NCBI GenBank assembly: GCA_017792345.1
Contig: CP051228.1
Coordinates: 620,001-684,000, forward strand
Direction of reading: 5' to 3'
Source of the DNA: Mesoflavibacter sp.
GTDB lineage: Bacteria; Pseudomonadota; Alphaproteobacteria; UBA8366; Aestuariispiraceae
DNA: 64,000 nt
In this document: positions 14,186 to 31,474 of the stretch, one piece after another
How the letters are laid out: each line of letters begins with the position of its first letter
Position numbering within the stretch: the stretch's first letter is position 1
The notes under the pieces: model-generated
What the model was told of the DNA's origin: nothing
What the model saw: only the letters and a program-made list of their open reading frames with translations
The model's database searches: none
Program-made: the position numbers and the translations under genes

Positions 14186-14191
14186 GCCGCG

Positions 14192-16384
14192 TCACCCCTC
14201 GTCCGCGATCAGGGCGGCATAGGCGCCGTCGGCGGCGATCAGAGCGTCATGGGTCCCGCGTTCGACGATCTTGCCGCGCGACAGAACGATGATCTCGTCG
14301 CAATCGCGGATCGTCGACAGGCGATGGGCGATGATCAGGCAGGTGCAGCCGCGCCGCCGCAGATTGTCGTCGATCGCCTTCTCCGTCACCGTGTCCAGCG
14401 CCGCCGTTGCCTCGTCGAGGATCAGAATGCGCGGGTCCTGCGTCAGGGCCCGTGCGATCTCCAGCCGCTGACGCTGCCCGCCGGAGAAGTTGGTCCCGCC
14501 CTCTTCGACATGACAGTCAAGCTGCCTGGACCGCCCCATGACGTCGTCCCGGATTTCCGCGTCCCCCAAAGCGCGTGTCAGATCCTGGGTCGGGACGTCG
14601 TCGTCCCAGAGGGTCAGGTTGTCGCGCACCGTGCCGTCGAACAGAAAGATATCCTGATCGACATAGGCGACGGACCCGGCATGGACATGCCTGGGGATCA
14701 TTTCCAAAGGATGGCCGTCAACGGCGACGGTGCCGCTCCAAGGTTCCAACAGGCCGGCGGCGATCCGGCCGATTGTCGACTTGCCGCTGCCCGATCCGCC
14801 GACCAGCGCGACCCGTGCCCCCGGCGCGACGGTCAGCGAAATGCCATCCAGCAGGGGCGGGTCCAACGGACTGTAGCCATAGGTGACATCGGTCAATGTC
14901 AGTTGTCCGTCCAGGACCGGCGGCCCCCGCCAATCCGATTCCGGCGGCGGCGGTGCGGGCATGGGATTCGCCTCGATATCGTCGAGACGCGCGATGTCGC
15001 CGCGCACGCGTTGCAACTGCCCGCCCAGATCGACCAGGGCGCCGATCGGCGTGATGAAGCTGAGCATCAGCGACTGGATCGCGACGATGGAGCCGATCGA
15101 CAGGGCGCCTTCCATGACGCGCATGCCGCCGATCCCCAGAATGGCCGCCGTGGTCAGCGCGCCGGTCAGGACGGGCGACGCGGTCAGAAGGACATTGGTC
15201 AGGCCGATCACCCTCTGCGAATCCAGCATCTTCGCCTGATAGCCGGCCCAGGTCCGGAACGCGTCATTCTCCATGCCGCTGGTCTTCAGGCTTTCGGACG
15301 AACGGATGCTGCCGACCGTGGCCGCGACCAGCTTGCCGCCGTCGGCCATCAGCGCGCGGTTGATATCGACCCGGCGGCGGGACAGGACCTTCAGCAGGAC
15401 GAGGTTCGCGGCCGCGAGCGTGAACCCGACCGCCGACATCATCCAGTCGTAAACCGCGATGGCGAGGCCGTAGAAAACGACCATTCCCAGATTCATAACA
15501 TTCGTCGCCAGTTGACCGGAAAGAAGCATCGCGATCCGGTCGTTCGCCGCCATCCGGTCGGATAGATCGCCCGCATGCCGCTGCGCGAAGAAAGACGCCG
15601 GCAGATGGATCAATCGCCACAGAAAGCGCGATGCCATGGTAAGCGCCAGCTTGGTTTCGAGGCGCAACAGATAGCGCTGCTGAAGCCAAGTGAAGGCCCC
15701 GCGCAGCATGGCCGCGACAACGATCCCGATGACCAGCGGCACAAGCCAGTTCTCTTTCTCGTCCACCAGGATCTCGTCGACGAAAATTTTGGAGAAGCCG
15801 GCAATGGCGATCCCCGGAATGACGAGGGCCAGGCTGGTCAGGACGACGAATGCCAGCGCGGACCGGGAGGAGCGCAGGCGCCGCGCCAGAATGCCGACAA
15901 GGCTGGACCGGCCACCCTGGCGCTGGAAATCCGGACCGCGTTCGAAGGCCAGAACGACACCGGTGTAATACTCGCCGAACTCGTCCAGGGGCAGGCGCCG
16001 AGGGCCGGACGCCGGGTCGTTGATATAGGCATAGCCGCGCCGAATCCCTTCGAACACGACGTAGTGATTGAAGTTCCAATGGATGATCGACGGCACCGGC
16101 AGGTCGGTCAGGGTCTTCGGCTCTTTCTTGAACCCCTTGGCCGACAGCCCGAACCGGCGCGCGGCTTTCAGCAGATTGCTCGCCTTGCTGCCGTCGCGGG
16201 TCACCCCCGCCGCCACCCGCAGCGCGTCGATCGATTCCCAGCGACCGTGATAGCCCAGCACCATGGCCAGACAGGCCACACCGCATTCGACCCCGGTCAT
16301 CTGCAACACTGTGGGCGTCCGGGCCCGGCCCCGGAACGGGCGGCGCGGGCCTCGCCTTTTGGTCCCTTCCGCTTCCCCTGCCAT
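14192..16384 (-). CDS. NHLM-type peptidase-containing ABC transporter
   Basis: This 730-aa PCAT cleaves the leader and exports the peptide. The N-terminal C39 peptidase has Q28, catalytic C34 (GVECG), H107 (NHYVV) and D123 (NDPASG). Six membrane helices lie at about 150-440. The ATPase carries Walker A GGSGSGKS, signature FSGGQRQR and Walker B ILILDEA. It starts 3 bp after the HlyD-type gene and is followed 6 bp later by the partner ABC gene. The substrate is expected to be one or more of the Nif11-type peptides encoded across the divergent promoter. Confidence 0.94.
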   Translation of the reverse strand: MAGEAEGTKRRGPRRPFRGRARTPTVLQMTGVECGVACLAMVLGYHGRWESIDALRVAAGVTRDGSKASNLLKAARRFGLSAKGFKKEPKTLTDLPVPSIIHWNFNHYVVFEGIRRGYAYINDPASGPRRLPLDEFGEYYTGVVLAFERGPDFQRQGGRSSLVGILARRLRSSRSALAFVVLTSLALVIPGIAIAGFSKIFVDEILVDEKENWLVPLVIGIVVAAMLRGAFTWLQQRYLLRLETKLALTMASRFLWRLIHLPASFFAQRHAGDLSDRMAANDRIAMLLSGQLATNVMNLGMVVFYGLAIAVYDWMMSAVGFTLAAANLVLLKVLSRRRVDINRALMADGGKLVAATVGSIRSSESLKTSGMENDAFRTWAGYQAKMLDSQRVIGLTNVLLTASPVLTGALTTAAILGIGGMRVMEGALSIGSIVAIQSLMLSFITPIGALVDLGGQLQRVRGDIARLDDIEANPMPAPPPPESDWRGPPVLDGQLTLTDVTYGYSPLDPPLLDGISLTVAPGARVALVGGSGSGKSTIGRIAAGLLEPWSGTVAVDGHPLEMIPRHVHAGSVAYVDQDIFLFDGTVRDNLTLWDDDVPTQDLTRALGDAEIRDDVMGRSRQLDCHVEEGGTNFSGGQRQRLEIARALTQDPRILILDEATAALDTVTEKAIDDNLRRRGCTCLIIAHRLSTIRDCDEIIVLSRGKIVERGTHDALIAADGAYAALIADEG

Positions 16385-16387
16385 AAT

Positions 16388-17665
16388 TCAGGAGGCCCAG
16401 CCGGACCAGAACCCGATACCGGTATGTTTGCGGATGAAGGGCACGATCAGATTGACCGGCGGATCTTCGGACACGGTGATTTCCGCCTCCAATGTGGTCC
16501 CGGCGGTGATCGGCACCGGCGGGCCGAGACCGGACGTCCAGCGATAGCCATTGGCCGCGCCGGCGTCGGGCAACAGGTCGACACGCGCCGCATAGGGCGC
16601 GCCTTCCTCTGAATAGGCGGCGACGAGCTGGTCGTTCTGCAGGATGCTCAGCATCCCTTCGCGCGTCGCCGGATAATCCGACACTTCGATGACCTGCCCG
16701 ATCAGGGCGCCGAATTCCTCTTTCTTCACGGTGGACGGGGCCAGATGGACGGTCATGCCGGGCACGACGCGTTTGCCGTCCGCCGTCGGTACGAACATCA
16801 TCGCCTGCAGCACTTGGCCATCGGTCGCGATGCTGACGATTGCCGCGCCGCGCCGAACCACCGCGCCTTCGAAGACCTTCAGTTCGGTCACACGCCCCGA
16901 TGTGGGCGCCAGGACCCGCGCTTCCTTGGTCAACCGGGCCTCCAGTTCCCGGATGCGGTGCCGTGCTTCGTCGATCCTCAGGTCGATTTCGGTCAGGTTT
17001 CTGGTATGGGCCGTGCGCAGGGTCAGAATCTCGGATTCCAGCTCCAGGATACGGTTCCGGGCCGCACTGATATCCTGCAAGGAGGCGTTATACTCGGCGG
17101 TCTTGGCATCCAATTGATCGCGCGTCGCATAGCCTTTGGCCGCCAGGGCCTCCAGTTTCTCCAATCCCGACGACAGCGAATCCGCCCGCGCCTGCGCCGC
17201 CCGGATGATCCCTTCCTGGGCCGCGCGTTGCTTGTCGAAATTGCCGGTCTTCAAGGTGATTTCCTGGTCGAAATTACGCTCGATGACCTCCCGTTCGCGC
17301 AGTCTTCCGGCCAGCACCTCGCCCGCGCTTTCAAATTCCTGGCGCAACGCGTCCTGTTCGATCACGGCGATTTCCTGGCCTTTCTCGACAATCCCGTTCT
17401 GCGCCACCAGAAGCGCGGTTACGGTCCCGTCGGACGGCGCCATCGCGTCGAGGATGCGCCCGCCCGAGGTCACGAAGATGCCCTTGCCGGAAACCTGATC
17501 GGGAATATGTCCGAAGATCCCCCAGCCGAGAATCGCCGTGACCACCAACAGAAGGGTCGACAGCGTGACCCAGCCGAACGGATCGGATACCGGCACGATC
17601 CGGTCCAGTTGCTCCGGCGACGACAGCCTGTCCAGCGCCGCCTGGCGAAAAATCTGACGTGCCAT
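16388..17665 (-). CDS. NHLM-type HlyD-family secretion adaptor
   Basis: This 425-aa periplasmic adaptor has a short cytoplasmic head of the NHLM type (FRQAALDRLSSPEQLDRIV), one membrane helix near residues 35-55, a lipoyl half-motif, a coiled coil (about 110-250) and a C-terminal beta-barrel. I chose the ATG at 17665 because it gives the canonical NHLM N-terminus. An in-frame ATG at 17719 would add 18 residues without a ribosome site. It is the first gene of the split export operon and is divergent from the AraC-type regulator. Confidence 0.9.
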   Translation of the reverse strand: MARQIFRQAALDRLSSPEQLDRIVPVSDPFGWVTLSTLLLVVTAILGWGIFGHIPDQVSGKGIFVTSGGRILDAMAPSDGTVTALLVAQNGIVEKGQEIAVIEQDALRQEFESAGEVLAGRLREREVIERNFDQEITLKTGNFDKQRAAQEGIIRAAQARADSLSSGLEKLEALAAKGYATRDQLDAKTAEYNASLQDISAARNRILELESEILTLRTAHTRNLTEIDLRIDEARHRIRELEARLTKEARVLAPTSGRVTELKVFEGAVVRRGAAIVSIATDGQVLQAMMFVPTADGKRVVPGMTVHLAPSTVKKEEFGALIGQVIEVSDYPATREGMLSILQNDQLVAAYSEEGAPYAARVDLLPDAGAANGYRWTSGLGPPVPITAGTTLEAEITVSEDPPVNLIVPFIRKHTGIGFWSGWAS

Positions 17666-17921
17666 TTGTCCCGCCGCCAGCCCAATTCGCCGCGGTACGG
17701 TACCGGAGCGATCAGGCATATCTTATTGCAATCTCGGCAGATTCTATCACCGGACCGGGGCCTGGCGGTCGGCCACACTTGTCTGCCAGTACCAAATGAG
17801 TTGCTCAAAAATTTCAAAGCCGTGCCGGACCGGCCTGTCGGATACTTTTTCAGACCTCCTTCACACCAGACCTGATATTGTGTCCGATGATCCACATTCC
17901 CGGTGAACCGATCGCGCGCGC

Positions 17922-18974
17922 ATGAACCAGATTATCGACACAAACGCCCCCATTCCGGTGCCTCGGCTGAGCTTCGACACCCAGAGTTTCGGTGCGGCGG
18001 ACCGGCTGGAAGCTTGGCGTGAGAACATTGGGGTCTTCTTCGATCTTTCCGCGGTGGACGGCGGCCGCCAGGAAAGCGTCGAACGGGCACGGATCGACGC
18101 CTGCAGCATGGCCGGCACCGTCTTCGGGGTCACCACGGCGGACGCGCAATTGTTTCAGCGTTCCGAACAGCGTGTCGCCCGGGACGCGATGGAACACTTC
18201 CTGGTGCAGGTCTTCCTGCATGGCGGCGGCCGGACTCGCAACGGCGAAACGATCCAGGCGGGCGACATGCTGATCATCGATCTGGATCAGCCGCACAGCA
18301 TGGTGACGACCGATTTCTCGAACCTGACGCTGGTTCTGCCGCGTGAGCTGCATCCCGCCTTGTCGGACATACTGACCCGTCTGCACGCCCGCCGCCTGCC
18401 GAGCACCAGCCCGGTTATCCGGCTTCTTGCCAGCCATTTGCAGTCGATCTGGCACAATGTCGGCGATCTGACGGTACGGGACGCCGGGGCGACGCTGAAG
18501 GGCACGATCGGCCTGATGGAATGCTGGCTGTCGCAAAACCAGTTCACCGAGGCCCTGTCACCGGAAGTGTCCTCCGGTCTCGCCAAGGCGATTTTCCGAC
18601 ATATCGATGCCCATATCGACCAGCCCATCACGCCCGAGCAACTCTGCGTTCTGTTCCGGGTGTCCCGGTCGCAGCTTTACCGCATCTTCAAACCGTACGA
18701 GGGCGTGTCGCGCTATGTCTGGGAACGCCGGATGCTGAAAGCCATGCGCATGCTGGCGAACCCGATTTTCAGCGAGCTCGCCATCGGTGCGGTCGCCTTC
18801 AAATGCGGCTTTTCGACGGAACCCCATTTCAGCCGTTCCTTCAAGGAACGCTTCGGCACCAGCCCCAGCGCCTTCCGGCGTGACGCGCTGGACGCGTATT
18901 TCAATGGCACCGGCTATTCCGACCACGGGCAGCATTACCGCGACCGCTTCGCATCCTGGATCCGGGAACTCTGA
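17922..18974 (+). CDS. AraC-family regulator with AraC_binding_2-like sensor
   Basis: This 350-aa regulator has an N-terminal beta-barrel sensor (about 15-190) of the FeaR-type AraC_binding_2 group and a C-terminal double HTH (about 230-325, ending in GTSPSAFRRD). It lies between the divergently transcribed export operon and three Nif11-type precursor genes that follow on its own strand. It is the natural candidate to control both (inference). The 256-bp region upstream holds the divergent promoters. I see no convincing operator there. Confidence 0.88.
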   Translation: MNQIIDTNAPIPVPRLSFDTQSFGAADRLEAWRENIGVFFDLSAVDGGRQESVERARIDACSMAGTVFGVTTADAQLFQRSEQRVARDAMEHFLVQVFLHGGGRTRNGETIQAGDMLIIDLDQPHSMVTTDFSNLTLVLPRELHPALSDILTRLHARRLPSTSPVIRLLASHLQSIWHNVGDLTVRDAGATLKGTIGLMECWLSQNQFTEALSPEVSSGLAKAIFRHIDAHIDQPITPEQLCVLFRVSRSQLYRIFKPYEGVSRYVWERRMLKAMRMLANPIFSELAIGAVAFKCGFSTEPHFSRSFKERFGTSPSAFRRDALDAYFNGTGYSDHGQHYRDRFASWIREL

Positions 18975-18983
18975 CGCAACCTG

Positions 18984-19006
18984 TTCTGGATGGTTGGGCA
19001 TTGGCC
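18984..19006 (+). promoter_or_regulatory. Upstream element shared by Nif11-type genes, copy 1
   Basis: The segment starts with TTCTGGATG and ends with TGGCC. It recurs as a 22-base variant at 19444-19465. Both copies end about 100 bp before the start of a precursor gene (102 and 98 bp). The conserved position suggests a promoter or activator site rather than chance. The protein that would bind it is unknown, and the neighbouring AraC regulator is a candidate. Confidence 0.4.
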
Positions 19007-19107
19007 CATGGCGTCCAACCTTGGATAGTTATCCAGTCGGAGGGGTGAACATCACTGGCAGCCAAAAAGCACGGCGCCAGGGTTAAAACGGCGATCAGGA
19101 GACAGTC

Positions 19108-19374
19108 ATGACCGAACAGACTACCGGACAATCGAATGTATTGAAGTTCCGGACGCTGATCGATTCCGATCCCGCGCTTCAGGCAGAGGTTTCACAACAT
19201 GTCGGGAACGGGACTTGGAATGCCGCGTCTATCATCGATCTGGCGAACACCAAGGGTCTGGATTTCAGTGCCGACGACATTGTCGATGTTCTCGACGAGG
19301 ACGACGAGCTTTCCGACTTCGAACTGGAATTGGTCGCGGCGGCGGGCGTGTCCTGCAATGATGACGGTGCCTAG
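19108..19374 (+). CDS. Nif11-type leader peptide precursor 1
   Basis: This 88-aa secreted-peptide precursor has the N-terminal block NVLKFRTLIDSDPALQ, a central G-x-x-FS motif and the acidic C-terminal leader end DELSDFELELVAAA, all Nif11-like. The double-alanine/small-residue leader end suits a C39 peptidase. Cleavage after VAAA would leave the core GVSCNDDGA with one Cys. GGAGA precedes the ATG. It is the first of three tandem precursors after the AraC gene. Its sequence is about 60-70% like precursors 2 and 3 by eye in the leader, while the core is quite different. Function unknown: signalling peptide, microcin or cysteine-based ligand are all open. Confidence 0.85.
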   Translation: MTEQTTGQSNVLKFRTLIDSDPALQAEVSQHVGNGTWNAASIIDLANTKGLDFSADDIVDVLDEDDELSDFELELVAAAGVSCNDDGA

Positions 19375-19443
19375 ACAAGGCGCGCAGCGAACCAACCCGC
19401 CGAAGAACGGTATCCCCACATTCTGAAATCCGGACGCAAGCCA

Positions 19444-19465
19444 TTCTGGATGTCTGGACATGGCC
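19444..19465 (+). promoter_or_regulatory. Upstream element shared by Nif11-type genes, copy 2
   Basis: This is the second copy of the TTCTGGATG...TGGCC element described at 18984, here 22 bases long with one base fewer in the middle. It ends 98 bp before the ATG of precursor 2. No clear third copy was found before precursor 3. Confidence 0.4.
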
Positions 19466-19562
19466 ACTTTCCGCCAATTGCACAGATGATCTCAATAGAG
19501 GGGCGTCGTTCGGAACCGGTCCAATTCGGTCGGTTGCTGAGATTTGTTAGGTGGAGGAAGTG

Positions 19563-19832
19563 ATGACCGAACACACAACCGGACAGGACAATGTCCTGAA
19601 GTTCCGATCCCTCGTGGACTCGGACCCTGCCCTGCAGGCCGATGTCGGACGCCATGTGGGTAACGGAACCTGGAACGCCGCCGCGATCGTCGAGATCGGG
19701 CAAGCCCGGGGCCTGAATTTTTCAGCCGAGGATATTGAGGCGGTCTTGGATCAGGACAACGAACTGTCGGATTACGAACTTGAACTCGTCGCCGCCGCCG
19801 ATGCCGCGAACTGCTACGACCGTGGGGTCTAG
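19563..19832 (+). CDS. Nif11-type leader peptide precursor 2
   Basis: This 89-aa precursor shares the leader of its neighbours (NVLKFRSLVDSDPALQ, GNGTWNAAAI, ELSDYELELVAAA). The predicted core after VAAA is DAANCYDRGV, again with a single Cys. I chose the ATG at 19563 because GGAGG sits 5 nt upstream. A GTG at 19551 in frame would overlap that ribosome site. The 188-bp gap from precursor 1, with its own upstream element, suggests separate initiation rather than read-through only. Confidence 0.85.
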   Translation: MTEHTTGQDNVLKFRSLVDSDPALQADVGRHVGNGTWNAAAIVEIGQARGLNFSAEDIEAVLDQDNELSDYELELVAAADAANCYDRGV

Positions 19833-19845
19833 TCGGTGGACGACT

Positions 19846-19863
19846 GAGACCGGGTTCGGTCTC
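19846..19863 (+). terminator. Hairpin after Nif11 precursor 2
   Basis: GAGACCG / GGTT loop / CGGTCTC forms a perfect 7-bp stem starting 14 bp after the stop. It is followed by GGGTTGTT rather than a clean T-run, so it may act as a weak or attenuating terminator between precursors 2 and 3. Confidence 0.4.
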
Positions 19864-19943
19864 GGGTTGTTGGGCGGCCGAAATGGGACAGGCATTTCCG
19901 ATATGCGATAGGTCCCGAACATGTCTTACTATAGGAGGTTTGA

Positions 19944-20213
19944 ATGACCGTTAATGATGCGGGACAGTCGAATGTCCTGAAGTTCCGTACCCTCGTCGAC
20001 ACCGATCCAGCGCTTCAGGCCGATGTTATGCAGCATATCGGCAACGGCGGCTGGAACAGTTCCGCGATCGTCGAAATCGGCCGCAAAGCCGGGCTCGAAT
20101 TCTCGACGGAGGATCTCGTTACCGTGATGGAAGAGGACGACGAGTTATCGGATTTCGAACTCGAGCTGGTCGCCGCCGCTATGCCACCGGAATGCGTCGA
20201 TACAGATGCATAG
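19944..20213 (+). CDS. Nif11-type leader peptide precursor 3
   Basis: This 89-aa precursor has the same leader framework (NVLKFRTLVDTDPALQ, GNGGWNSSAI, ELSDFELELVAAA). The predicted core is MPPECVDTDA with one Cys. It has an excellent ribosome site (AGGAGG, 5-nt spacer, ATG). It is the last of the plus-strand precursors and is followed by a hairpin at 20223 and the convergent GNAT gene. Confidence 0.85.
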   Translation: MTVNDAGQSNVLKFRTLVDTDPALQADVMQHIGNGGWNSSAIVEIGRKAGLEFSTEDLVTVMEEDDELSDFELELVAAAMPPECVDTDA

Positions 20214-20222
20214 TGGCTAATC

Positions 20223-20249
20223 GGCGACGGCTGTGTTTGGACCGTCGCC
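20223..20249. terminator. Hairpin between convergent precursor 3 and GNAT genes
   Basis: GGCGACGG pairs with CCGTCGCC across an 11-base loop, about 10 bp after the stop of precursor 3 and about 10 bp from the end of the GNAT gene. It has a perfect 8-bp stem but only TT follows. It is probably a bidirectional terminator. Confidence 0.5.
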
Positions 20250-20259
20250 TTCAGAGTGG

Positions 20260-21177
20260 CTACTCCAGCGCCAGGGCGCTGGAGTATCGCTCGTCCACCC
20301 AAAGCGGCCCGGCCGGGACAAGGCGCCGCTTCATTAAGCCGATCATCCGCGCGTTCTCGCCGAAGGTCTCATAGACCGCGACCGATTTCGGGCCGTAGAC
20401 TTCGGCCTGCCGCCGGCAGACATCGTGCAGGCCGGCGACCACCCAGCCCAGCGCCTGCAGTTCCGGGACGACATAGCCGTTGGTGTAATGGTGATAGCCC
20501 TCCGTGTCCGGGCTCTCGCCGAAGATCCAGCCGACCAGATGCCCGTGGCGTCGCAGGGCGAGCGAGATCGCCGGATCGATATGCGGCTCGAAAGTGCGAT
20601 AGTCGAAAATTTTCCTGTCCCCAACCAGCGCATCCGCGACCGCACGGTCGTCATCCGTGATGCTTTCCCAAGGTTCGGCGGCGTATCCAAGACCGGCAAG
20701 GCGCCGCATCATCGGGTCCCAGCTTTTCGTCAGCCGTTCGGTCCAATCCGCATGGCCGCCCAGCCGAAACTCCGCGAGTTTCGGGGGCGTCCAGCCGGAT
20801 GCCCCCAAGAAGGCTTCAAAGACTTCCCGACCGCGGGTCCGGTTCGAATGATAGGCGGTCAGCTTCCTCGACGCCGCGCCCCGCGCCGCCGAAACGGCGT
20901 GCTGCATCAATCCCCATCCGATGCCGCGGCGCCGATATCCCCGCGAGACCATGATCGACAGCATCCGCGTTTCGCCCGGGGCATCGCCACCCGCCGCCCG
21001 ATGACGCAACAGGGCGAGACCGACCGGCCGTCCCTCCAGAATCGCGCCGATAGAGGTGACACGGCGGCCGGTCCCATCGGCCGTCGACTCGGTACCTAGA
21101 AGTTCCCGGAAGCGCGGATAGGTCAGTGCCGCGAAGGCCTTGGCATCCGCGCCGTGGACGGGTCCAATCTTAATCAT
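20260..21177 (-). CDS. Tandem-domain GNAT acetyltransferase in the peptide export operon
   Basis: This 305-aa protein has two GNAT-like halves. The first (about 5-140) has a clear acetyl-CoA pyrophosphate loop, RGYRRRGIGWGLM. The second (about 145-295) is more divergent, around the HDVCRRQAEVYGPKSVAVYETFG segment. The ATG lies inside the preceding 79-aa gene (8-bp overlap), so it is coupled to the fused transporter. Its target is unknown. It could acetylate the exported peptide, provide self-protection, or belong to cell metabolism (inference). It is the last gene of the precursor 4 - transporter - stub - GNAT operon. Confidence 0.85.
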   Translation of the reverse strand: MIKIGPVHGADAKAFAALTYPRFRELLGTESTADGTGRRVTSIGAILEGRPVGLALLRHRAAGGDAPGETRMLSIMVSRGYRRRGIGWGLMQHAVSAARGAASRKLTAYHSNRTRGREVFEAFLGASGWTPPKLAEFRLGGHADWTERLTKSWDPMMRRLAGLGYAAEPWESITDDDRAVADALVGDRKIFDYRTFEPHIDPAISLALRRHGHLVGWIFGESPDTEGYHHYTNGYVVPELQALGWVVAGLHDVCRRQAEVYGPKSVAVYETFGENARMIGLMKRRLVPAGPLWVDERYSSALALE

Positions 21178-21409
21178 GCCGCGCCTCCGTTGCCTTCCGG
21201 CCGGACGCCTCGGCATCGGATACGGACAGCAGGGCGAACGCCCCCCACAGGGCTGCGCCAAGGGCCAGAGCGAGTTGCAGCGCCCTCAAGGACCGCCGCC
21301 GGCCGGGATGCAGCAGTTCGGGCATCGTGCCCTGCCCATGCACACCGGTGAAGTGATCGACGGCCTGCTGCCGGAACAGCGCGCGCTTGCGGAACTTCAA
21401 GGCGTCCAT
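21170..21409 (-). CDS. 79-aa HlyD-like N-terminal stub membrane protein
   Basis: This 79-aa protein resembles only the head of an NHLM HlyD adaptor. It has a cytoplasmic segment containing FRKRALFRQQ and PELL (compare FRQAALDRLSSPEQL in the adaptor at 16388), then one membrane helix (about residues 41-63, LQLALALGAALWGAF). It stops there, with no coiled coil or barrel. AGGAG precedes the ATG. It overlaps the transporter gene by 13 bp and the GNAT gene by 8 bp, so it is a real coupled gene and not debris. It may be a minimal adaptor or a decayed one whose transporter now uses the full HlyD from the other operon (inference). Confidence 0.72.
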   Translation of the reverse strand: MDALKFRKRALFRQQAVDHFTGVHGQGTMPELLHPGRRRSLRALQLALALGAALWGAFALLSVSDAEASGRKATEARHD

Positions 21410-24400
21410 TCGGGGCTCCTTTCAGAAACTACGTCCGATTCTAGAACGGGGCTCGCCGGTTTTTCCGCGACCAGCCTGCCTTCCGCCATGCGGTAGACAC
21501 GGTCGGCAAGCGCCAGGGCGCTGGCCCGATGCGACACGACAAGGCAGGTGATACCGAGCGCACGGATCGCGCCGAAGATCTCTGCCTGCATGGCGTCGGA
21601 CAGGGCATTCGTCGCCTCGTCGAGGATCAGCAGCTTCGGTTTCCGGACCAGCCGCCGCGCGATCAGGATTCGTTGTTTCTGACCGGTGGAGATGCGTTCG
21701 GAATCGACGATCGTCTGAATGCCCATGGGCATGGCATCCAGATCCGCCTCCAACTGCGCCATTCGCGCCGCCTCGCGGATTTCCGCCAGGGTGAAACCAT
21801 CCTCGCCGCCGATATGCCCCCGGATCGTCATCGCCTGCTCCAACTCGTCGTCCTGAAGCACGGCGCCGATCTCCTCGCGCCAGGCGGAAATGTCCAATTC
21901 CCCCGGCCCGGCACCGCCGCGCAGGATTTCGCCGCCCTCTGGCGCATGGAAGCCGAGCACGAGCCGCAACAGCGTGGATTTCCCGCAACCCGACGGGCCG
22001 GTCAGCGCGACGATCTCACCCGGTCCGACGCGCAAGGAGACATCCTCGACCGCAGGCCGCAGCGCGGTCGGATACCGGTAGCGGACACGGACGAGCTCGA
22101 GGCTGCCGTCATTCGCCCCCTCTCCATCCCCCTCGGAACCCTCCGGGGCCGGATCGACCGGGGCCCGGGCAAGTAGGCGCAACCGTCGCAGCGCCGGCCC
22201 GGCATGCGCGATTTCGCACAAGGCGCCGGATGCCTGCCGTGCGGCAATGGCGGCCAGCAGGAAGGCCAACACGGTCGCCGCGTGCAGGGGAGATTCCGGC
22301 ACGTCGCGCAGGACCGCGACCACGAACAGGCCGGCCGCGGCAAGGACGTACCAGTTCAAGGCGGCGTCGGCCGCCGCCTCCCATCGGCGCACCAATCCGG
22401 CGGGGCCGCGTTCGGCATCGACCAGCCGCGCCCATTCGGCGAGCGCCGGTTCGGTGCGCGCCGCCTGCCGCAGCTTGGCCGCGTTCTTCGTCAGGGCGGC
22501 CAGAAACACCCGGCCGGCCGGCCGGCGGCTCAGCAAGGCGGTTGCCGGGCGCGACCGCAACGCGGCCAGTCCGGCCGGCACCAGGGCGAAAGGCAGCATC
22601 AGCAACAAGGCAAGCCCGGTCAGGTCCGGCGCTGCCCAGGCTATAAAGGCAAGGCAGGTTACAGCTCCGAACCCCAGCGCCAGCCGCCGCATCGCCCCCC
22701 CGCGCAGAAGGGCGAGCAGTTCGGGGACGGCTTGCAGGCTTCGGTTCACCTGCTGCGGTGCGTGACCTCGAATGAACAGTGGTTGGATGCGCATCAGGTG
22801 CTGATAGAGGGCGGAATGCGCCGACAGTTCCAGAACGCCCTCGATCCTGTGACCGGCGGCCAGCCTCGTAGCGCACAGGACCAACACGCCGGTCCCCCAG
22901 AGCGCGAGCCCCCCGATCCAAATCAAGGGCGGTACGCCGACGGATAAAAGCGCATAAACCCCTATGGGAGCGCCGACCAGAAGGAACGCCAAAAGCAAGT
23001 CGGCGAGCAGACCCTCCGTCAGGCACGCCGCTATCGGTTTCAGCGGGGCGAGAAAGAAGTCCCGGACCCGGACGGCGGCCGGTGCGAAGCACGGATAGAG
23101 CCGATACGCGGTCGGCATCAGACTGTCCACCGGGTCCATCGGCGGCCCCGCGCTACCGTCCGCATTGAGGATGTGCCATCGCCCCGACGCATCCCGATCG
23201 ATCCCGACCGGACGGCCATCCTGCTTCGCGAACGCGATCAAGGGTCCGCAGTCCCGCCGCCACCAATCCGCCACGACGAAGCGGATCGGACGCAGCATCA
23301 GCCGGTGCTGCCGTGCCATATTCAACAACGCCGCCCGCAGCGTAGCGCCGCCAGGGCGCGCAACGACGACAATGGACCGAACGCCCGACGCCCTCGCCAC
23401 GCTTTCGAATGCGAGCACCAGCGCGGCCGGATCGCGCAGCGGCATTGCCCCGGGATCGACCGCATCGACATCCGCGGCCTGGAAGGGGTTCGCGCCATGC
23501 TTCAGGGGCCGCGCTTGCCGTTCTTCGGCCCCGGCTTCCTCCAACCGTCCATCCGACAACCGAAGCGCCCGGTCGCAGGCGGCGATGGTCGACGCGCGAT
23601 GACTGATCATCAGCACCGTCGTCCCGCGCCGCCGGAGATTGCGGAACAGGCGCTGCTCCGTGTCGGGATCGAGCCCGTCGGTCGCCTCGTCGATCACGAT
23701 CAGGCCCGGATTGCGCGCCAAGACCCGTGCGAGTTCGATGCGTTGCCGCTGGCCGCCGCTGATGTTGCCGGCACCCGGCGTCAAGGGCGTGTCGAGCCCG
23801 TCGGGCAGGCCCGCGATCACATCGTCCAAACAGACATCCGCGACGGCGTTCCGAAGATCCGCCTCCGTCAGTGTCTCGTCCCAAAGCCGGATATTGTCCC
23901 GGATCGTTCCGGGCGCGAAGAACGGATGCTTGTCCAGCCAGCCGATCCGGCGCGCGCGTTCCGCGGGCGGAATGTCCCGGACCGGGACGCCATCAAGGAC
24001 GACGTCTCCGCTCCAGGGTTGATGCAGGCCGATCATCAGGGCGGCCAGGGCGGATTTGCCGCCGCCCGACGGGCCGGTCAGCGCAATCCACTCCCCGGGT
24101 TCGATCGATACCGTTATCCGCTCAAACAGGGGCGGCTTCACCGAAGAGAAGCCGAACCGCGCATCGCGAACGCGGAGTGCCGCGCCGCCTGCAATTTTGC
24201 GCGTGCCTTCCTTTGGCGGGGTCGGTTCCGTGGCGCTGTCGCTCAGATCATCGAGCGCCGGCAGAGAGATGCGCAGCGTATCCAAGGTCCCATGCAATGT
24301 GGAAACGGCCCGCAGCAGCAGGTGCAGCATCGCAAGCAGACAGAATATGGAAATGAGGCTTTCCGTCTCGCGTCCCGGCGTCAGCGGCCAGACCTGCAGG

Positions 24401-25575
24401 GTCAACACGAGAACCGGCAGCATGAGCCAGAAGGCCAGATCCGCCGACGCTTCCGCACCGAGTTTGAAGAGCCCGACGCGCTGCCGGACATCCAGGCGAC
24501 GCGCGCACAGCCCCATCGCATGGTTGAAGAATTCCCGATCGCCGCCGCTTGTTTTGAAGGATTCGAAGTTCTCCAGGCTGTGGGACAGTTTCATCCAGTG
24601 AATGTCGCGGTCGTCCTGACGCGACCGCCCGCGCAATGCCGCCGCCCGGTCCGCCGCCAGATTGAGGACGGCATGGACGGCTGCCAGGCCGGCCACAGCA
24701 AGAGCCGTGGGAAGATGCACAAAGCCGAGCGCGAGAAGGATCAAGGGGATGGCAAGAAGCGCACCGACGGCGGGAAGGACCTTGCGGAACAGCATCTCCG
24801 CAACGGCATCGTGGGACCCGACGCGTTGCGCCATCACCGCGTGGACCCGATAGACGAAGAAGGCGTGGGATTGCGTCAGGATATGACGGGCCATACCGGT
24901 CAGCCGGTTCCGGCAATAATGGTCCTCCGCCCGTGACGACGCCCAGGCGGACGCGACCAAGGCAGCGCCGGTCCCGGCCAGCCCGGCGCCCCCCCAGGAA
25001 ATCCATGTCGCCTCCGCGCCGCCGCCGGAAAGGGGAAGGTAGAGAAGCGCGGGCAGCAGCGGCACGGCCCAAAAACTATGCGCCGCGAATGCCGTTGTCA
25101 GAAGACCGGGGGGACAATGGCGGTATTGCCGCAGGATACGCCGCCACAATGGGATCGCGCGCCCCCCCGGCACGAACCTTTCGCCCGGCGAGAAGGACAG
25201 CGCCACGCCGGTGAAGCTCTCGTCGAATTCCTCCCTCGGCATGGTGTAGCGCCCGAAGCCCGGATCGGCGATCTGCACCGTCCGGTCGTCCAGCGCCTCC
25301 ACCACGGTGAAATGGATGAAATCGGTGAAGACGACCAGGGGGAAGCCAAGACGGCTCAGCCGCTCCGGCTCGGTTCGGACAACCCGTGCCGACAGGCCGT
25401 AATGATCCGCGATCCGCAGCAGATCTTTGGCATCGACGCAATCCCGGGACACACCGGATATCCGCCGCAGCGTGTCCAGTTCTACATGGCGGCCGAAATG
25501 GGCGAGAATCATCCCCATGGATGCCAGACCGCATTCCGTGGACTGCGTCTGGAAATGCAGCGGCACAGGTTTCAT
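21397..25575 (-). CDS. Fused full-length peptidase-ABC exporter (C39-TM-ATPase-linker-TM-ATPase)
   Basis: This 1392-aa single chain contains both halves of an NHLM-type exporter. The C39 peptidase at 1-135 has Q9, C15, H88 and D104. The first membrane domain is about 160-440. ATPase 1 has Walker A 501-508 (GPSGGGKS), signature 606-610 (SGGQR) and Walker B ending at E630. An ABC2-like linker follows, with WWRRDCGPLIAF. The second membrane domain is about 870-1130. ATPase 2 has Walker A 1193-1200 (GPSGCGKS), a degenerate signature STGQKQR and Walker B LLILDEA. In the neighbouring operon these halves are separate genes. It lies 104 bp after precursor 4 and overlaps the HlyD-like stub. It should trim and export Nif11-type peptides. 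Confidence 0.92.
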   Translation of the reverse strand: MKPVPLHFQTQSTECGLASMGMILAHFGRHVELDTLRRISGVSRDCVDAKDLLRIADHYGLSARVVRTEPERLSRLGFPLVVFTDFIHFTVVEALDDRTVQIADPGFGRYTMPREEFDESFTGVALSFSPGERFVPGGRAIPLWRRILRQYRHCPPGLLTTAFAAHSFWAVPLLPALLYLPLSGGGAEATWISWGGAGLAGTGAALVASAWASSRAEDHYCRNRLTGMARHILTQSHAFFVYRVHAVMAQRVGSHDAVAEMLFRKVLPAVGALLAIPLILLALGFVHLPTALAVAGLAAVHAVLNLAADRAAALRGRSRQDDRDIHWMKLSHSLENFESFKTSGGDREFFNHAMGLCARRLDVRQRVGLFKLGAEASADLAFWLMLPVLVLTLQVWPLTPGRETESLISIFCLLAMLHLLLRAVSTLHGTLDTLRISLPALDDLSDSATEPTPPKEGTRKIAGGAALRVRDARFGFSSVKPPLFERITVSIEPGEWIALTGPSGGGKSALAALMIGLHQPWSGDVVLDGVPVRDIPPAERARRIGWLDKHPFFAPGTIRDNIRLWDETLTEADLRNAVADVCLDDVIAGLPDGLDTPLTPGAGNISGGQRQRIELARVLARNPGLIVIDEATDGLDPDTEQRLFRNLRRRGTTVLMISHRASTIAACDRALRLSDGRLEEAGAEERQARPLKHGANPFQAADVDAVDPGAMPLRDPAALVLAFESVARASGVRSIVVVARPGGATLRAALLNMARQHRLMLRPIRFVVADWWRRDCGPLIAFAKQDGRPVGIDRDASGRWHILNADGSAGPPMDPVDSLMPTAYRLYPCFAPAAVRVRDFFLAPLKPIAACLTEGLLADLLLAFLLVGAPIGVYALLSVGVPPLIWIGGLALWGTGVLVLCATRLAAGHRIEGVLELSAHSALYQHLMRIQPLFIRGHAPQQVNRSLQAVPELLALLRGGAMRRLALGFGAVTCLAFIAWAAPDLTGLALLLMLPFALVPAGLAALRSRPATALLSRRPAGRVFLAALTKNAAKLRQAARTEPALAEWARLVDAERGPAGLVRRWEAAADAALNWYVLAAAGLFVVAVLRDVPESPLHAATVLAFLLAAIAARQASGALCEIAHAGPALRRLRLLARAPVDPAPEGSEGDGEGANDGSLELVRVRYRYPTALRPAVEDVSLRVGPGEIVALTGPSGCGKSTLLRLVLGFHAPEGGEILRGGAGPGELDISAWREEIGAVLQDDELEQAMTIRGHIGGEDGFTLAEIREAARMAQLEADLDAMPMGIQTIVDSERISTGQKQRILIARRLVRKPKLLILDEATNALSDAMQAEIFGAIRALGITCLVVSHRASALALADRVYRMAEGRLVAEKPASPVLESDVVSERSPEWTP

Positions 25576-25679
25576 CCGCCGTCCATACAGGCATGGAACG
25601 GCGGCCTGCCGGCAGCGGCCGCGCTATTCGCCCACCGTTCCGATAGGACCGTCAAAAGCCGGTCGCCTCCGACACAGGC

Positions 25680-25949
25680 TCAGACATTGCTGCCGGTGCC
25701 GCAGCTCGGTGCCACACCGGCGGCCGCGACGAGCTCAAGCTCGAAATCCGACAAGGCATCATCCTGTTCGAATGCCGCAATCAGCTCCTCTTTCGAAAAG
25801 CTCAGACCGTGAGCGGCGGCAAGCGCCACGACCGCGCCGGGATCCCAGGCATCGCCTTTGAAATGCTCAGACAACTCACGCTGCAACGACGCGTTCGAAT
25901 CAGCGAGGGCGCGAAATTTGAGAACATTCTGGTTGAGTTCGGCGGGCAT
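25680..25949 (-). CDS. Nif11-type leader peptide precursor 4
   Basis: This 89-aa precursor is related to the three at 19108-20213 but more divergent (NVLKFRALADSNASLQ, GLSFSKEEL, ALSDFELELVAAA). The predicted core after VAAA is GVAPSCGTGSNV, 12 residues with one Cys. I chose the ATG at 25949 because it gives the same 89-aa length and N-terminus as the others. An in-frame extension to 26054 is possible, and the ribosome site is weak. It lies directly upstream of the fused exporter on the same strand, so it is that exporter's likely dedicated substrate. Confidence 0.82.
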   Translation of the reverse strand: MPAELNQNVLKFRALADSNASLQRELSEHFKGDAWDPGAVVALAAAHGLSFSKEELIAAFEQDDALSDFELELVAAAGVAPSCGTGSNV

Positions 25950-26206: not shown

Positions 26207-26283
26207 TGGCTGGGGCGCTAGGATTCGAACCTAGGAATGCCGGTACCAAAAACCGGTGCGTTAAACCGCTTCGCCACGCCCCA
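26207..26283 (-). tRNA. tRNA-Gln (UUG)
   Basis: A cloverleaf reads on the minus strand with acceptor TGGGGCG/CGCCCCA, T-loop GGTTCGAATCC, a 7-nt anticodon loop TTTTGGT giving anticodon TTG, and genome-encoded CCA. The length is 77 nt including CCA. There is no attachment-site repeat around it that I can see. Confidence 0.95.
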
Positions 26284-26903: not shown

Positions 26904-28805
26904 ATGGCGTTTCCGCAGCCCTTTCTGGATGAAATCCGTGCCCGCGTGCCGCTGACGCAGCTTGTCGGGCGGCGGGTGTCCCTGAAACAACGGGGGCGCG
27001 AGGATTGGTGGGGCCTGTCGCCCTTCTCCAACGAAAAGACGCCGTCCTTTCATGTTCGCGACGACAAGGGCTTCTATCATTGTTTCGCGTCGGGGGAGCA
27101 TGGCGACCATTTTTCCTGGCTGATGCAGGTCGAGGGGCTGAGCTTCCCGGAAGCGGTGGAAACCTTGGCCGGGCTCGCCGGGATGGAGGTGCCGAAATCT
27201 TCCCCCGAGGAGCGCCGCCGGGAAGAGAAACGCAAGGATCTGACCGATGTCGTCGCCTTCGCCGCGGGCTGGTATGCAAAGCAGCTCAACGGCCCCGCCG
27301 GGCGCGAGGCGCGCGATTACCTGAAAAGCCGTAGGCTGGAGGCACTGACCGTCGAGACGTTCGGCCTGGGCTTTGCGCCCGACGACCGCGAATCTCTGGC
27401 CACCGCCGCCAAGGCGCAGGGCATCGAGATGCCGCAATTGATCGAGGCCGGTCTGTACCGGAAGCCCGATGACGGGCGCAGCCCCTACCCGCTGTTTCGC
27501 AACCGCATCATGTTCCCGATCAACGACCGGCGCGGGCGGCCCATCGCTTTCGGCGGCCGTTTCATGGGCGATGCCAAGGCGATCGGGGTCGGGAAATACA
27601 TCAACTCCCCGGACACGCCGCTCTTCGACAAGTCGCGTACGCTCTATAATCTGGACCGCGCCCGCGAACCGGCGCGCCAGGGCGAACCGCTGCTGGTGGT
27701 CGAAGGCTATATGGATGTCATCGCCCTGTGGCAGGCCGGGTTCGTCTCGGCCGTCGCGCCGCTGGGCACCGCCGTGACCGAACATCAGATCGCCGAGCTG
27801 TGGCGCTTCCATGACGAGCCGGTCCTGTGCCTGGACGGGGATGTCGCCGGTCAGAAGGCCGCGATTCGTGCCGGCGAACGCGCATTGCCGGGTTTGAAGC
27901 CGGGGAAGAGCCTGTCCTTCGCCTTCATGCCGGAAGGCGACGATCCCGACAGTCTGGTCAACGGGCCGGGCGGCGCGCGGGAAATGAATACGCTGATCAA
28001 ACAGGCGCAGCCCTTGTCGGACTTCCTGTTCGAGACGGAAAGCGACGGCGTGCGCCTGGATACGCCGGAGCGTCGGGCGCGCCTGGAAGCGGACCTGTTC
28101 CAACTGATCGGCGGGATCGAGGACGAGCTGGTGCGCAAAGAATATCAGCGCGCCTTCCGCGACAAGCTGTGGCAATTGCACCGGAAACACAGCCAGACCC
28201 GCCTGAAGCAAACGCGGCGTCAGGCGATCCGCGAGATGCGGGCGACGCGAAATGACGCGCGCGGTCCTCAGGCGGAACAGCCCTTCGGCCGCAAACTTCT
28301 GGAGACCGCATCGAAGCGTCTGGTGCGCCGCCGTCAGGAGATCGTGCTGGCCACCCTGGTCAACCATCCGGCCCTGATCGAGGAGTTCGACGAGGCCTTG
28401 GACGGCATCGCCTTCGACCCCGATCTTGACAAGCTGCGCGCGGAACTTCAAAAACGCGCCCTAGCGGGCGATATGCTTGACCCGGAGGCGCTTACGCACC
28501 ACTTGATCGCAGGTGGGGCGGAAGCGCCTTTGTCTGCTGTTACCCATCCGGACGTGTTCCGACTGGCGCCGCAGGCCAAGGCGGGCGCCGAACCGCTGGA
28601 GGCCCGGCGGCTGTTGGAACATATTCTGCTGATCGGTCAGCAGTCGGTTTTGGTGGGGGAATACCGGACGGCCGGCCGACTTCCGGGGGAGGAAGGCGCG
28701 GCGGCCGACAAGCGGGACTTGCGATTGGAAGCGCTCCGGCGCTCGGTCGACGCCGGCGAGGGCCGGCTCGGAGCCGGGCTGTCGGACGATGGCGAAGATT
28801 ACTGA
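26904..28805 (+). CDS. dnaG: DNA primase
   Basis: This 633-aa primase makes RNA primers at the replication fork. The order is zinc-ribbon-like domain (1-100), catalytic core with TOPRIM (about 255-345; [11 protein letters not shown] and LCLDGDVAG carry the acidic residues), then the DnaB-binding C-terminus. The zinc ribbon is degenerate: at the four expected ligand positions I read S39, S42, C60 and S63, where the canonical pattern is C, H, C, C, so zinc binding is probably lost. It has no strong ribosome site. rpoD follows 55 bp downstream, giving the dnaG-rpoD half of the macromolecular synthesis operon. No rpsU is seen. Confidence 0.96.
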
Positions 28806-28860
28806 TCATTGCGGCCGCGCTCACGGGCGGTGCGGCGGCGTTGGAAGGAAAACGGGCAAT

Positions 28861-30957
28861 ATGGCGACCAAAGCGGAATCGAACGAAGCGACCGAGAACA
28901 CCGAAGAACAAGGCGACGGTCCGGTCCTCGAGGACTCCCATTCCGCGGTTAAGAAACTGCTTCAAAAAGGCAAGGAGCGCGGCTTCATCTCAATCGACGA
29001 GCTGAACGAGGCGCTGCCGCAGGAGCAGGTGTCGTCGGAACAGATCGAAGACGTCATGACCATGTTGAACGACATGGGCATCAACGTCGTCGACGGCGAC
29101 GAGCAGGACGGCGACAACGAAGCGCGCCCGACCGAAGAACGCGGCGAGGCCAGCACGTCCGACGCCGGCAACATCTCCGATGACGAAGTCGGCCGCACCG
29201 ACGATCCGGTGCGCATGTATCTGCGCGAAATGGGCTCGGTCGAGTTGCTGTCCCGCGAAGGCGAAATCGCCATCGCCAAACGCATCGAGGCCGGCCGCGA
29301 AAAGATGATCGGCGCGCTTTGCGAAAGCCCGCTGACCATGCGCGCCATCACCGACTGGCATGACCAGTTGGTCGAAGCCCAGATTCTGCTGCGCGACGTC
29401 ATTGATCTGGACGCCACCATGTCCTCCGGCCCCGACGCCGACGATATGGCCGACATCGAGACTGGCGATGAAGAGGCTGGTGAGGTCGAAGAGGTCAAGG
29501 CGAGCAATCAGAAAAACCAGAACGACGACGAGGACGACGGGGAAGACGACGGCGAAGACGGCGCGTCCGAAACGGCCGCGAAACCCGCCGCCAAAGCCGA
29601 ACCGGAAGAGCAGAAGGCCGACGCCGAGGACGGCGAGCCGGCAGCCAATACCGGCGGCGAAGACGGCGACGACGAGGACAATGAAGAAAACAACATGTCC
29701 CTCGCCGCCATGGAGCAGGCGCTGAAGCCGACGGTCCTGGAGACTTTCGAGAATATTTCGGCGACCTATGCCAAGCTGCAGCGCGCCCAGGACAAGCGCG
29801 TGTCGACCATGCAGCGCGGCGAGGCGGTGTCCCGCTCGACCGAGCGGACCTATGACAAGCACCGCAAGGAACTGATCCAGCTGATGGACGAGGTGCGCCT
29901 GAACAACATGCGCATCGAGCAGTTGGTCGAAGAACTGTATTCGATCAACAAGAACCTGATCACGCTGGAAGGCAAGCTGCTGCGCCTGGCGCTGGACAGC
30001 AAGATCGACCGCGAAGAGTTCCTGAACAGCTATTTCGGCCGCGAACTGGACCCGAACTGGCTGGAGGAAATGGCGGACAAGTCCAACAACTGGGCCAAAT
30101 TCGCCGCCAAGAACGCCGCCAAGGTCGAAGAACTGCGCTCCGGCATCTCCGAGATCGCGAACGAAGCCGGCATGCCGATCCCCGAATTCCGCCGCATCAC
30201 CTCGACGGTGCAGCAGGGCGAGCGCGAAGCGTCCCGCGCCAAGAAGGAAATGGTCGAAGCCAACCTGCGCCTCGTCATCTCCATCGCCAAGAAATACACC
30301 AACCGAGGCCTGCAATTCCTCGACCTGATCCAGGAAGGCAATATCGGCCTGATGAAGGCCGTGGATAAGTTCGAATACCGCCGCGGCTACAAGTTCTCGA
30401 CCTACGCGACATGGTGGATCCGGCAGGCGATCACCCGCTCGATCGCCGACCAGGCCCGCACGATCCGTATCCCGGTCCATATGATCGAGACGATCAACAA
30501 GCTGGTCCGCACCTCCCGCCAGATGCTGCACGAGATCGGCCGCGAGCCGACACCGGAAGAACTGGCCGAAAAGCTGGCCATGCCGCTGGAGAAGGTGCGG
30601 AAGGTCCTGAAGATCGCGAAGGAGCCGATCTCTCTCGAAACCCCGATCGGGGACGAGGAAGACAGCCATCTGGGCGATTTCATCGAGGACAAGAACGCGA
30701 TCCTGCCGTCCGACGCCGCGATCCATTCGAACCTGCGCGAAACCACGACGCGGGTCCTGGCCTCGCTGACGCCGCGTGAGGAACGCGTGCTGCGCATGCG
30801 CTTCGGCATCGGCATGAACACCGACCACACATTGGAAGAGGTCGGTCAGCAGTTCAGCGTCACCCGCGAACGTATCCGCCAGATCGAGGCGAAGGCGCTG
30901 CGGAAGCTGAAACACCCGAGCCGCAGCCGCAAACTGCGCAGCTTCCTGGATTACTGA
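28861..30957 (+). CDS. rpoD: RNA polymerase primary sigma factor RpoD
   Basis: This 698-aa sigma-70 has region 1.1 (about 25-80), region 1.2 from [11 protein letters not shown] (about 115), a non-conserved region with a long acidic low-complexity insert (about 186-278), then regions 2 to 4. Region 2.4 contains [13 protein letters not shown] and region 4.2 contains [28 protein letters not shown] chose the ATG at 28861, which gives the usual MATKA start; an in-frame ATG at 28789 lies too close to dnaG. It is the housekeeping sigma factor. Confidence 0.98.
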
Positions 30958-30968
30958 TCGCCCGAACG

Positions 30969-31460
30969 ATGCTGTCCCTCAGGATCGCGACTCCGGACGA
31001 TAAGGATCTGGTGTCGGAAATCCTGAAGGACAGTTATCCGGCCGGTCTCGCCAGCCATTACCCGCCTGCAATTCTGGACGCCGTCCTGCCGCTGATGTGT
31101 CTGGCCCATCCGGTCATGCTGGCACGCAGGACCTATTTTATCGCGACCCTAGACGGTCGGCCGGCGGGCTGCGGCGGCTGGTCGAGTGCCGCGCCCGGCG
31201 GGGTCGGGATGGAACCTGGGCTGGCCCATATGCGTCATTTTGCAGTACGTACCGGTGCCATGCGCCGGGGCGTCGGGCGGGCCCTCTATGACCGTTGCGC
31301 CTTTGAGGCGCGAACGCTCGGCTATGACCGCGTGGTGACCGAAGCCGCGTTCAACGCCGAGGGTTTCTATGCGGCGCTTGGGTTTCAGGCGCGGGGTCAG
31401 GAAAGCGAAGAAATCAACGGCGTGCCGTTCCCCTATATCCGGATGGAACGGCGGCTGTAG
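30969..31460 (+). CDS. GNAT family N-acetyltransferase
   Basis: This 163-aa single-domain GNAT has the acetyl-CoA loop in AMRRGVGRALYDRC (about 97-110) and a GFYAALGFQ motif near the C-terminus. It starts 12 bp after rpoD and is followed 15 bp later by an alpha/beta hydrolase gene, so the two may be co-transcribed. The substrate cannot be told from sequence. Confidence 0.88.
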   Translation: MLSLRIATPDDKDLVSEILKDSYPAGLASHYPPAILDAVLPLMCLAHPVMLARRTYFIATLDGRPAGCGGWSSAAPGGVGMEPGLAHMRHFAVRTGAMRRGVGRALYDRCAFEARTLGYDRVVTEAAFNAEGFYAALGFQARGQESEEINGVPFPYIRMERRL

Positions 31461-31474
31461 GAAAGGCAAGCGGG

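Follow-up and report, generated by a model that had tools for sequence, protein, structure and literature searches.

The window analysed here, a stretch of 64,000 nucleotides from the single-contig genome (4.9 Mb) of Mesoflavibacter sp. (contig CP051228.1, positions 620,001 to 684,000), carries four genes for short precursor peptides with a Nif11-like leader, two exporters with a C39 peptidase and the gene of a GNAT acyltransferase. We propose, with a probability of roughly 0.57, that these genes form a small export cassette for ribosomally synthesized and post-translationally modified peptides (RiPPs) with the GNAT as maturase, in which the peptide cores would be acylated, cut off after LVAAA and exported. 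The genes are present, they are conserved in a second species, and GNATs of this family are repeatedly associated with such clusters. A sequence-only reading of the same DNA had preferred a system free of any maturase and had kept reliance on the GNAT as a fallback. What it had observed is partly confirmed and its interpretation is partly supported: not the lead idea but the fallback is best supported, because export genes of the NHLM or C39-ABC type repeatedly lie near relatives of the GNAT and such GNATs have been described as peptide acyltransferases. The apparent puzzle of an absent maturase becomes a testable enzyme–substrate pair with one GNAT, four precursors and two exporters. The central genes are as follows.

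19108 to 19374, plus strand: precursor 1, 88 aa, tail GVSCNDDGA; TIGR03798 at E 4.7e-5
19563 to 19832, plus strand: precursor 2, 89 aa, tail DAANCYDRGV; TIGR03798 at E 1.5e-7
19944 to 20213, plus strand: precursor 3, 89 aa, tail MPPECVDTDA; TIGR03798 at E 9.5e-9, over the cut-off
25680 to 25949, minus strand: precursor 4, 89 aa, tail GVAPSCGTGSNV; TIGR03798 at E 2.4e-6
21397 to 25575, minus strand: exporter 2, a single-chain C39-ABC1-ABC2 protein of 1392 aa; Peptidase_C39 at E 1.3e-31 and two ABC_tran stretches
21170 to 21409, minus strand: HlyD-like stub, 79 aa, resembling the N-terminus and hydrophobic segment of the NHLM HlyD adaptor
20260 to 21177, minus strand: GNAT acyltransferase of tandem-GNAT size, 305 aa, the proposed maturase; Acetyltransf_1 at E 8.5e-11

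Precursor peptides

All four window precursors are matched by TIGR03798, the model of the Nif11-like leader, at E values of 4.7e-5 or better, precursor 3 alone exceeding the curated cut-off. The open reading frames of 88, 89, 89 and 89 aa with their tails were found just as the sequence-only reading had given them, and the shared leader that it described is borne out. A profile built from the four precursors retrieved no further one from the window genome (G000) at E <= 10, and precursor 3 had no match on plasmids. Among 14 genomes of the family, precursors are present in two, the window genome and G012, a second species of the same genus. The gene order is kept in G012 from the gene of a cyclic-nucleotide protein (see below) through precursor 4, at whose position a precursor is found there too; window genes outside this block have no match within the 32 kb of G012 compared. 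Three of the four G012 precursors match TIGR03798 at E <= 1e-5, two of them over the cut-off. Their tails are GGPTQCGNDGL, NPVSCNNDGA, VPINCNDQNIRA and APTQCNDAGLN, the second belonging to the nearest counterpart of precursor 1.

Every tail contains exactly one Cys, as had been claimed for the window (4/4) and as now extends to G012 (4/4). With a Cys frequency of 36/5573 in eight window genes the chance of this pattern is about 3e-10 assuming independent tails, which these are not. In the window the Cys stands at tail position 4–6 and is followed by 5–6 residues; over the eight tails of both species it is followed by 5–7. Mean pairwise identity over the eight precursors is 0.61 for the leaders and 0.30 for the tails. 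Compared between the two species, the tails vary more than the leaders and the Cys is always kept; the earlier statement that the tails differ completely went too far, as Cys placement is shared and some identity remains. The precursor pair W1/G2 has a pN of 0.072 versus a pS of 0.377, as in a constrained coding gene. The cores are 9–12 residues long, two of the eight contain Arg and none contains Lys. Because Lys is absent and one Cys invariant, the acceptor of an acyl group would most likely be either the thiol of this Cys or the amine of the new N-terminus.

Gram-positive autoinducing peptides are thiolactone rings, and if the Cys thiol closed on the C-terminus a similar ring of 6–8 residues would arise here. 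The spacing of the Cys from the C-terminus suits such a signal in all eight tails and, at the same 5–7 residues, in the single-Cys tails of two sister clusters (L011 and L012, see below). No cyclising enzyme was recognised in the cluster, AgrB-type proteins not having been searched for, and we regard a thiolactone-type signal as very improbable.

Predicted cleavage site

The residues recognised by C39 peptidases are Leu-12, Glu-8, Leu-7, Val-4 and, in nearly all cases, Ala-3, followed by the double-Gly (PMC6363468; for this and the other papers cited, statements refer to the parts of their text that were available). The leader end L-x3-E-L-x2-V-A-A-A (LSDFELELVAAA and variants) fits this register in seven of the eight precursors, the exception being the third G012 precursor with Gly at -8, and the double-Gly position is occupied by Ala-Ala in all eight. 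Because of the match with the published register, a predicted C39 cut directly before the tails, after LVAAA, fits the leader ends, and the earlier suggestion that short single-Cys cores are exported gains support from a register that would place the cut at the tail start.

If the intact 88–89-aa protein were the functional product, the leader would stay in place. The well conserved leader and the Ala-Ala at the double-Gly position are in line with this; the C39 motif in the right register, the two C39 exporters, the conserved Cys, His and Asp in exporter 2 (see below) and the greater variability of the tails argue against it, and an uncut product appears highly unlikely.

With the GNAT as maturase, the Nif11 leader would present the core, to which the GNAT would transfer an acyl group; in this scheme the donor of that group, its acceptor and the action of the GNAT on the peptides are all inferred. 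The C39 domain of either exporter would cut at the site predicted from the motif, and the cut peptide would presumably be pumped out.

The GNAT and its relatives in other export clusters

The N-terminal half of the GNAT matches Acetyltransf_1 and contains RRRGIG at residues 82–87; in the second half only a degenerate QALGWV at 241–246 is found. A profile of ten relatives, A3, had its best match among solved structures in the clavulanic-acid tandem GNAT ORF14 (2wpw), over 70 positions. The GNAT relatives in L010, a locus from Planctomycetota, contain two Acetyltransf_1 stretches. Judged from profile and fold model, the window GNAT is likely, though not proven, to be a tandem GNAT.

Besides the window, 11 loci with relatives of the GNAT were found; in 10 of them NHLM or C39-ABC export genes lie nearby, and recognised Nif11- or NHLP-type precursors accompany eight of these ten. 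A tblastn search of plasmids with the window GNAT yielded four records at 28.6–32.9% identity, from Ensifer (two plasmids), Shinella and Azospirillum. NHLM or C39-ABC export genes are present in all four within the 12-kb flanks fetched, and Nif11- or NHLP-type precursors in three, annotated in Ensifer and Shinella and recognised by motif alone in Azospirillum. A fifth plasmid, from Microcoleus, was reached via the Shinella GNAT, with about 75 bp between its GNAT-like frames and the frame of an ABC exporter. At this locus (L045:12457-13556) two frames are needed to read the GNAT-like gene, and likewise the first part of the adjacent ABC exporter gene, so that both may be broken or mis-sequenced. 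Phages gave no match to the window GNAT.

Among 385 genomes of the class, the A3 profile found the GNAT in four, all with the NHLM HlyD, which is itself present in only 18 of the 385. In the two of these genomes outside the genus (G247 and G393), no more than about 2 kb separates the GNAT from a Nif11 precursor. Four of 398 genomes of the phylum were matched; G000, G542 and G605 hold the GNAT in Nif11/NHLM clusters, and a weak match in G735 lies outside any cluster. The latter was rejected as a relative (E 1.2e-11, 96 of 302 positions matched, and no further gene of such a cluster seen in 16.7 kb).

Two proteins from loci with GNAT relatives are of unusual build. In Ensifer, L041:9788-11536 encodes 582 aa whose C-terminal half resembles the window GNAT and follows about 280 residues without Pfam match. 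L050:4906-6072 encodes a protein of 388 aa that carries a Nif11 domain at its N-terminus and whose large C-terminal part matches no Pfam family; it shares its locus with a PoyD-type radical SAM epimerase and a GNAT.

Several points weigh against the GNAT as maturase. The structure model is modest (pLDDT 62, pTM 0.49) and its fold matches all have low TM scores, the best Foldseek match, the tandem GNAT 2wpx (again the ORF14 protein), reaching 0.28. The window GNAT is only 24–33% identical to GNATs outside the genus, and its likeness to NpuN, a GNAT discussed at the end, in size class, motif pattern and neighbourhood was drawn from description and not from sequence. The A3 profile was made from GNATs of such clusters and is biased toward similar matches, and in G247 and G393 a distance of 8–9 kb separates the GNAT from the closest NHLM gene seen. 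The characterised GNATs acylate Lys or Orn; Lys is found in all 14 cores identified beside other free GNATs versus none of the eight in the window and G012. These 14 cores come from L041 (4), L042 (2), L043 (1), L050 (1), L051 (1), L062 (3) and L063 (2), the count omitting L044 and L045, in which no precursor was recognised by motif, and L010, in which the GNAT is fused to domains of fatty acyl-AMP ligase (FAAL) type. Some of the clusters with Lys cores (L042, L062 and, with the PoyD-type epimerase, L050) also have radical SAM proteins, and Lys may for this reason not be the acceptor of the GNAT everywhere. Finally, the GNAT could be a self-protection enzyme, a role that GNATs of natural-product clusters can have (PMC13060382).

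Search for further candidate maturases

At E <= 0.01 neither the window genome nor G012 gave a match to the models for YcaO (PF02624), LanC-like (PF05147) and SPASM (TIGR04085) proteins, and a distant maturase of these three kinds elsewhere in the genome was rejected on these grounds. Family matches showed no arginase among the cluster genes, and Pfam revealed no other recognised RiPP maturase among 30 further open reading frames of the window, 13 of which had no match at the thresholds used; several of the 13 are probably wrong-strand frames. The earlier remark that no other modifying enzyme is encoded nearby falls short in undervaluing the GNAT, even though it was named as a fallback.

In an export system without a maturase, unmodified short Cys peptides, cut from the leader, would leave the cell as thiols, as disulfide dimers or as metal ligands, and the GNAT would serve another purpose. 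The empty model searches and the single Cys in every tail speak for such a system. So does locus L009, which contains an NHLM trio, a cyclic-nucleotide protein and two Nif11 precursors: no maturase or acyltransferase was recognised among its proteins examined, a further point against the GNAT as maturase, and tests of four downstream proteins revealed an ABC ATPase and proteins of cytochrome c assembly. However, GNATs of this family go with clusters of this type, and here the GNAT gene overlaps the stub gene, which in turn overlaps the exporter gene, so that we consider export without any maturase unlikely.

If instead the GNAT gave self-protection, acting on the exported product or otherwise, the Cys might be modified by an enzyme encoded elsewhere or of another family. 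Radical SAM proteins without SPASM, arginases and flavoenzymes were outside the scope of the genome-wide search, and a RimK-like ATP-grasp gene is found about 8 kb downstream of the cluster. The conserved block in G012 holds the same genes as the window, and the ATP-grasp genes do not occur in the 32 kb of G012 compared, where the other neighbours are unannotated; we take this combination to be less likely still than export without a maturase. The RimK-like gene belongs to a group at 30969-35602 in the window, downstream of 28789-30957, that encodes a small GNAT, a 452-aa open reading frame without family match, a GNAT-DUF3335 (C39-like) fusion and the RimK-like ATP-grasp protein. The ATP-grasp and GNAT-C39 genes were set aside as cluster enzymes because they were not seen in G012 around the cluster.

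Exporters, HlyD-like stub and layout of the cluster

The remaining genes of the conserved block are the following.

17922 to 18974, plus strand: AraC-type regulator upstream of precursors 1–3; HTH_18 at E 5.8e-17, 89% identity in G012
16388 to 17719, minus strand: exporter 1, NHLM HlyD adaptor; TIGR03794, 294 bits, over the cut-off
14192 to 16384, minus strand: exporter 1, NHLM ABC1 with C39 peptidase; TIGR03796, 982 bits, over the cut-off
11189 to 14185, minus strand: exporter 1, NHLM ABC2; TIGR03797, 815 bits, over the cut-off
10619 to 11170, minus strand: cyclic-nucleotide-binding, bacteriocin-transport-associated protein; cNMP_binding at E 5.2e-18, TIGR03896 at E 7e-40, below the cut-off, 89% identity in G012

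Precursors 1–3 follow the AraC-type regulator on the plus strand; it is this regulator, not a precursor, that begins at 17922, where the sequence-only reading had let its precursor region start. The NHLM trio and the cyclic-nucleotide protein are divergent from the regulator. On the minus strand, precursor 4 is followed after a gap of 104 bp by exporter 2, the stub and the GNAT; the stub gene overlaps the end of the exporter gene by 13 nt and the GNAT gene, with its start placed at the ATG at 21177 in agreement with G012, overlaps the end of the stub gene by 8 nt. From this arrangement precursor 4, the fused exporter, the stub and the GNAT look like one operon.

The two flanking C39 export systems described earlier are indeed there. 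Exporter 1 is a complete NHLM trio (11189-17719), all three models exceeding the NCBIfam cut-offs; exporter 2 matches both NHLM ABC models below cut-off. Over five aligned fused exporters, including that of the window, Cys15, His88 and Asp104 are invariant, which we take to be the catalytic residues of the C39 domain. An hhalign comparison of five stubs with seven HlyD proteins matched the stub to the first segment of NHLM HlyD with a probability of 95 and an E value of 3.9e-8. Counterparts of the stub exist in G012, L008, L011 and L043, that in G542 being longer (180 aa). Such small proteins resembling the HlyD N-terminus stand beside fused or split C39-ABC/ABC exporters at 21170-21409 in the window and at L019:14103-14342, L008:10352-10552, L011:4649-4855, L043:11440-11631 and L062:3755-4297 (180 aa).

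Between the two species dN is 0.37 for the GNAT, 0.375 for the stub and 0.288 for the fused exporter, versus 0.049 for ABC1, 0.071 for AraC and 0.112 for HlyD. Because the former three diverge alike and faster than the latter, the comparison fits a co-evolving unit of GNAT, stub and fused exporter. A gene for acyl transfer or acyl activation is present in each of the six loci whose fused exporter is full-length and whose flanks are readable: a GNAT in the window, G012 and G542, an AMP-binding/acyl carrier protein (ACP)/condensation protein in L008 and L011, and an AMP-binding protein in L012, where it lies on the other side of the NHLM trio and runs off the end of the locus. The fused exporter of G549, on a contig of 3.2 kb, was left out of this count. 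On plasmids the fused exporter had no match at 1e-100.

In both species a tRNA gene is found about 260–320 bp from the right end of the cluster, tRNA-Gln in the window (26207-26283) and tRNA-Arg in G012 (L020:8089-8165). That a tRNA gene adjoins the cluster end in both, and a different one in each, suggests that the cluster may be a mobile island. The tRNA-Gln region shares no exact repeat of at least 14 bp with other parts of the window.

Sister clusters with FAAL-type proteins

Relatives of the precursors were collected by a scan of genome contigs, which gave five loci (L008, L009, L010, L011 and L012). Besides L009, described above, they contain the following proteins.

L008:6216-9581 and L011:9327-12731: AMP-binding/ACP/condensation proteins near Nif11-leader precursors and C39 exporters
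L012:2-967: protein of which only the AMP-binding part is visible, near Nif11-leader precursors and a C39 exporter
L010:10316-13429 and 14142-18611: GNAT-AMP-binding-ACP fusions near a Nif11-leader precursor and a C39 exporter

The AMP-binding/PP-binding/Condensation proteins of L008 (Azonexus, 1121 aa) and L011 (1134 aa) lie near a fused C39-ABC-ABC exporter, and one of the two GNAT-AMP-binding-PP-binding fusions of L010 has a condensation stretch. In L008 the AMP-binding part falls among the fatty acyl-AMP ligases of NCBIfam; those of L010, L011 and L012 appear to be of FAAL type by resemblance only. The HHxxxDG motif of condensation domains is complete in L008 and L011; in L010 it reads HHLVMDT. 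Single-Cys cores without Lys occur also in L011 (TASNCNSDPLG) and L012 (NAVWCDSDDA), a second L012 core having neither Cys nor Lys; the two L008 cores contain Lys and no Cys, and the L010 core, which neighbours the GNAT-FAAL-type fusions, contains three Cys and no Lys. A FAAL-ACP-condensation partner elsewhere in the window genome or G012 was rejected, as at E <= 1e-20 only the AMP-binding part was matched, with 28–31% identity in frames of 507–844 aa.

Because FAAL-type and GNAT-FAAL-type proteins adjoin Nif11 precursors in these relatives, the loci point to a possible lipidation of ribosomal peptides by machinery of nonribosomal type. As a tentative and rather doubtful extension, the window could belong to a Cys-directed branch of acylated RiPPs, in which the GNAT, or the FAAL-ACP-condensation protein in sister clusters, acylates the single Cys or the N-terminus and the single-chain C39-ABC-ABC exporter with its HlyD-derived stub secretes the product. 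If this is true, such a branch joins the supply of ribosomal peptides to acyl chemistry of nonribosomal type. Among the matches listed from the open-licence literature, no paper combined a FAAL term with 'Nif11'.

Comparison with known systems

The closest functional parallels are the selidamides and nostolysamides (kamptornamide, phaeornamide; enzymes PhaN and NpuN), which share with the window an NHLP- or Nif11-type leader, a GNAT acyltransferase and ABC export. Selidamide GNATs attach a fatty acyl group to side chains of Lys or (hydroxy)Orn (PMC9505594, PMC13060382). NpuN is a tandem GNAT whose P-loop is clear in the N-terminal half alone; co-expressed in E. coli with a Nif11-leader peptide, it acylates Lys1 of that peptide (PMC13060382). 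In the systems described, Lys or (hydroxy)Orn is acylated and lanthionine synthetases are present, whereas the window has Lys-free cores of 9–12 aa with one Cys and its genome no LanC-like match. By analogy, the window cluster resembles selidamide systems in its presumed mode of action; it is not filed as one because the defining Lys/Orn acceptor is absent. Other ribosomal peptides that bear lipids are the lipolanthines, goadvionins and lipoavitides; where cases are named, a GNAT makes them (PMC13060382).

The N11P peptides with NHLM export (TIGR03798; Haft et al. 2010, PMC2887384) have in common with the window the leader family, paralogous precursors with variable cores and the NHLM trio of ABC1, ABC2 and HlyD, and N11Ps are also mentioned next to ABC clusters. 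The maturases named there are of TOMM or LanM type; neither was found in the window, which also has a second, fused exporter. Prochlorosins likewise derive from Nif11-family precursors (PMC10783134) and depend on one promiscuous enzyme of the ProcM group, in contrast to the window with no LanC-like match. Should the acceptor be the Cys or the N-terminus, the range of GNAT activity known from RiPPs would be widened. Set beside these systems, the window cluster appears to be an unusual offshoot of the modified-peptide systems known from bacteria and not a system without an enzyme.

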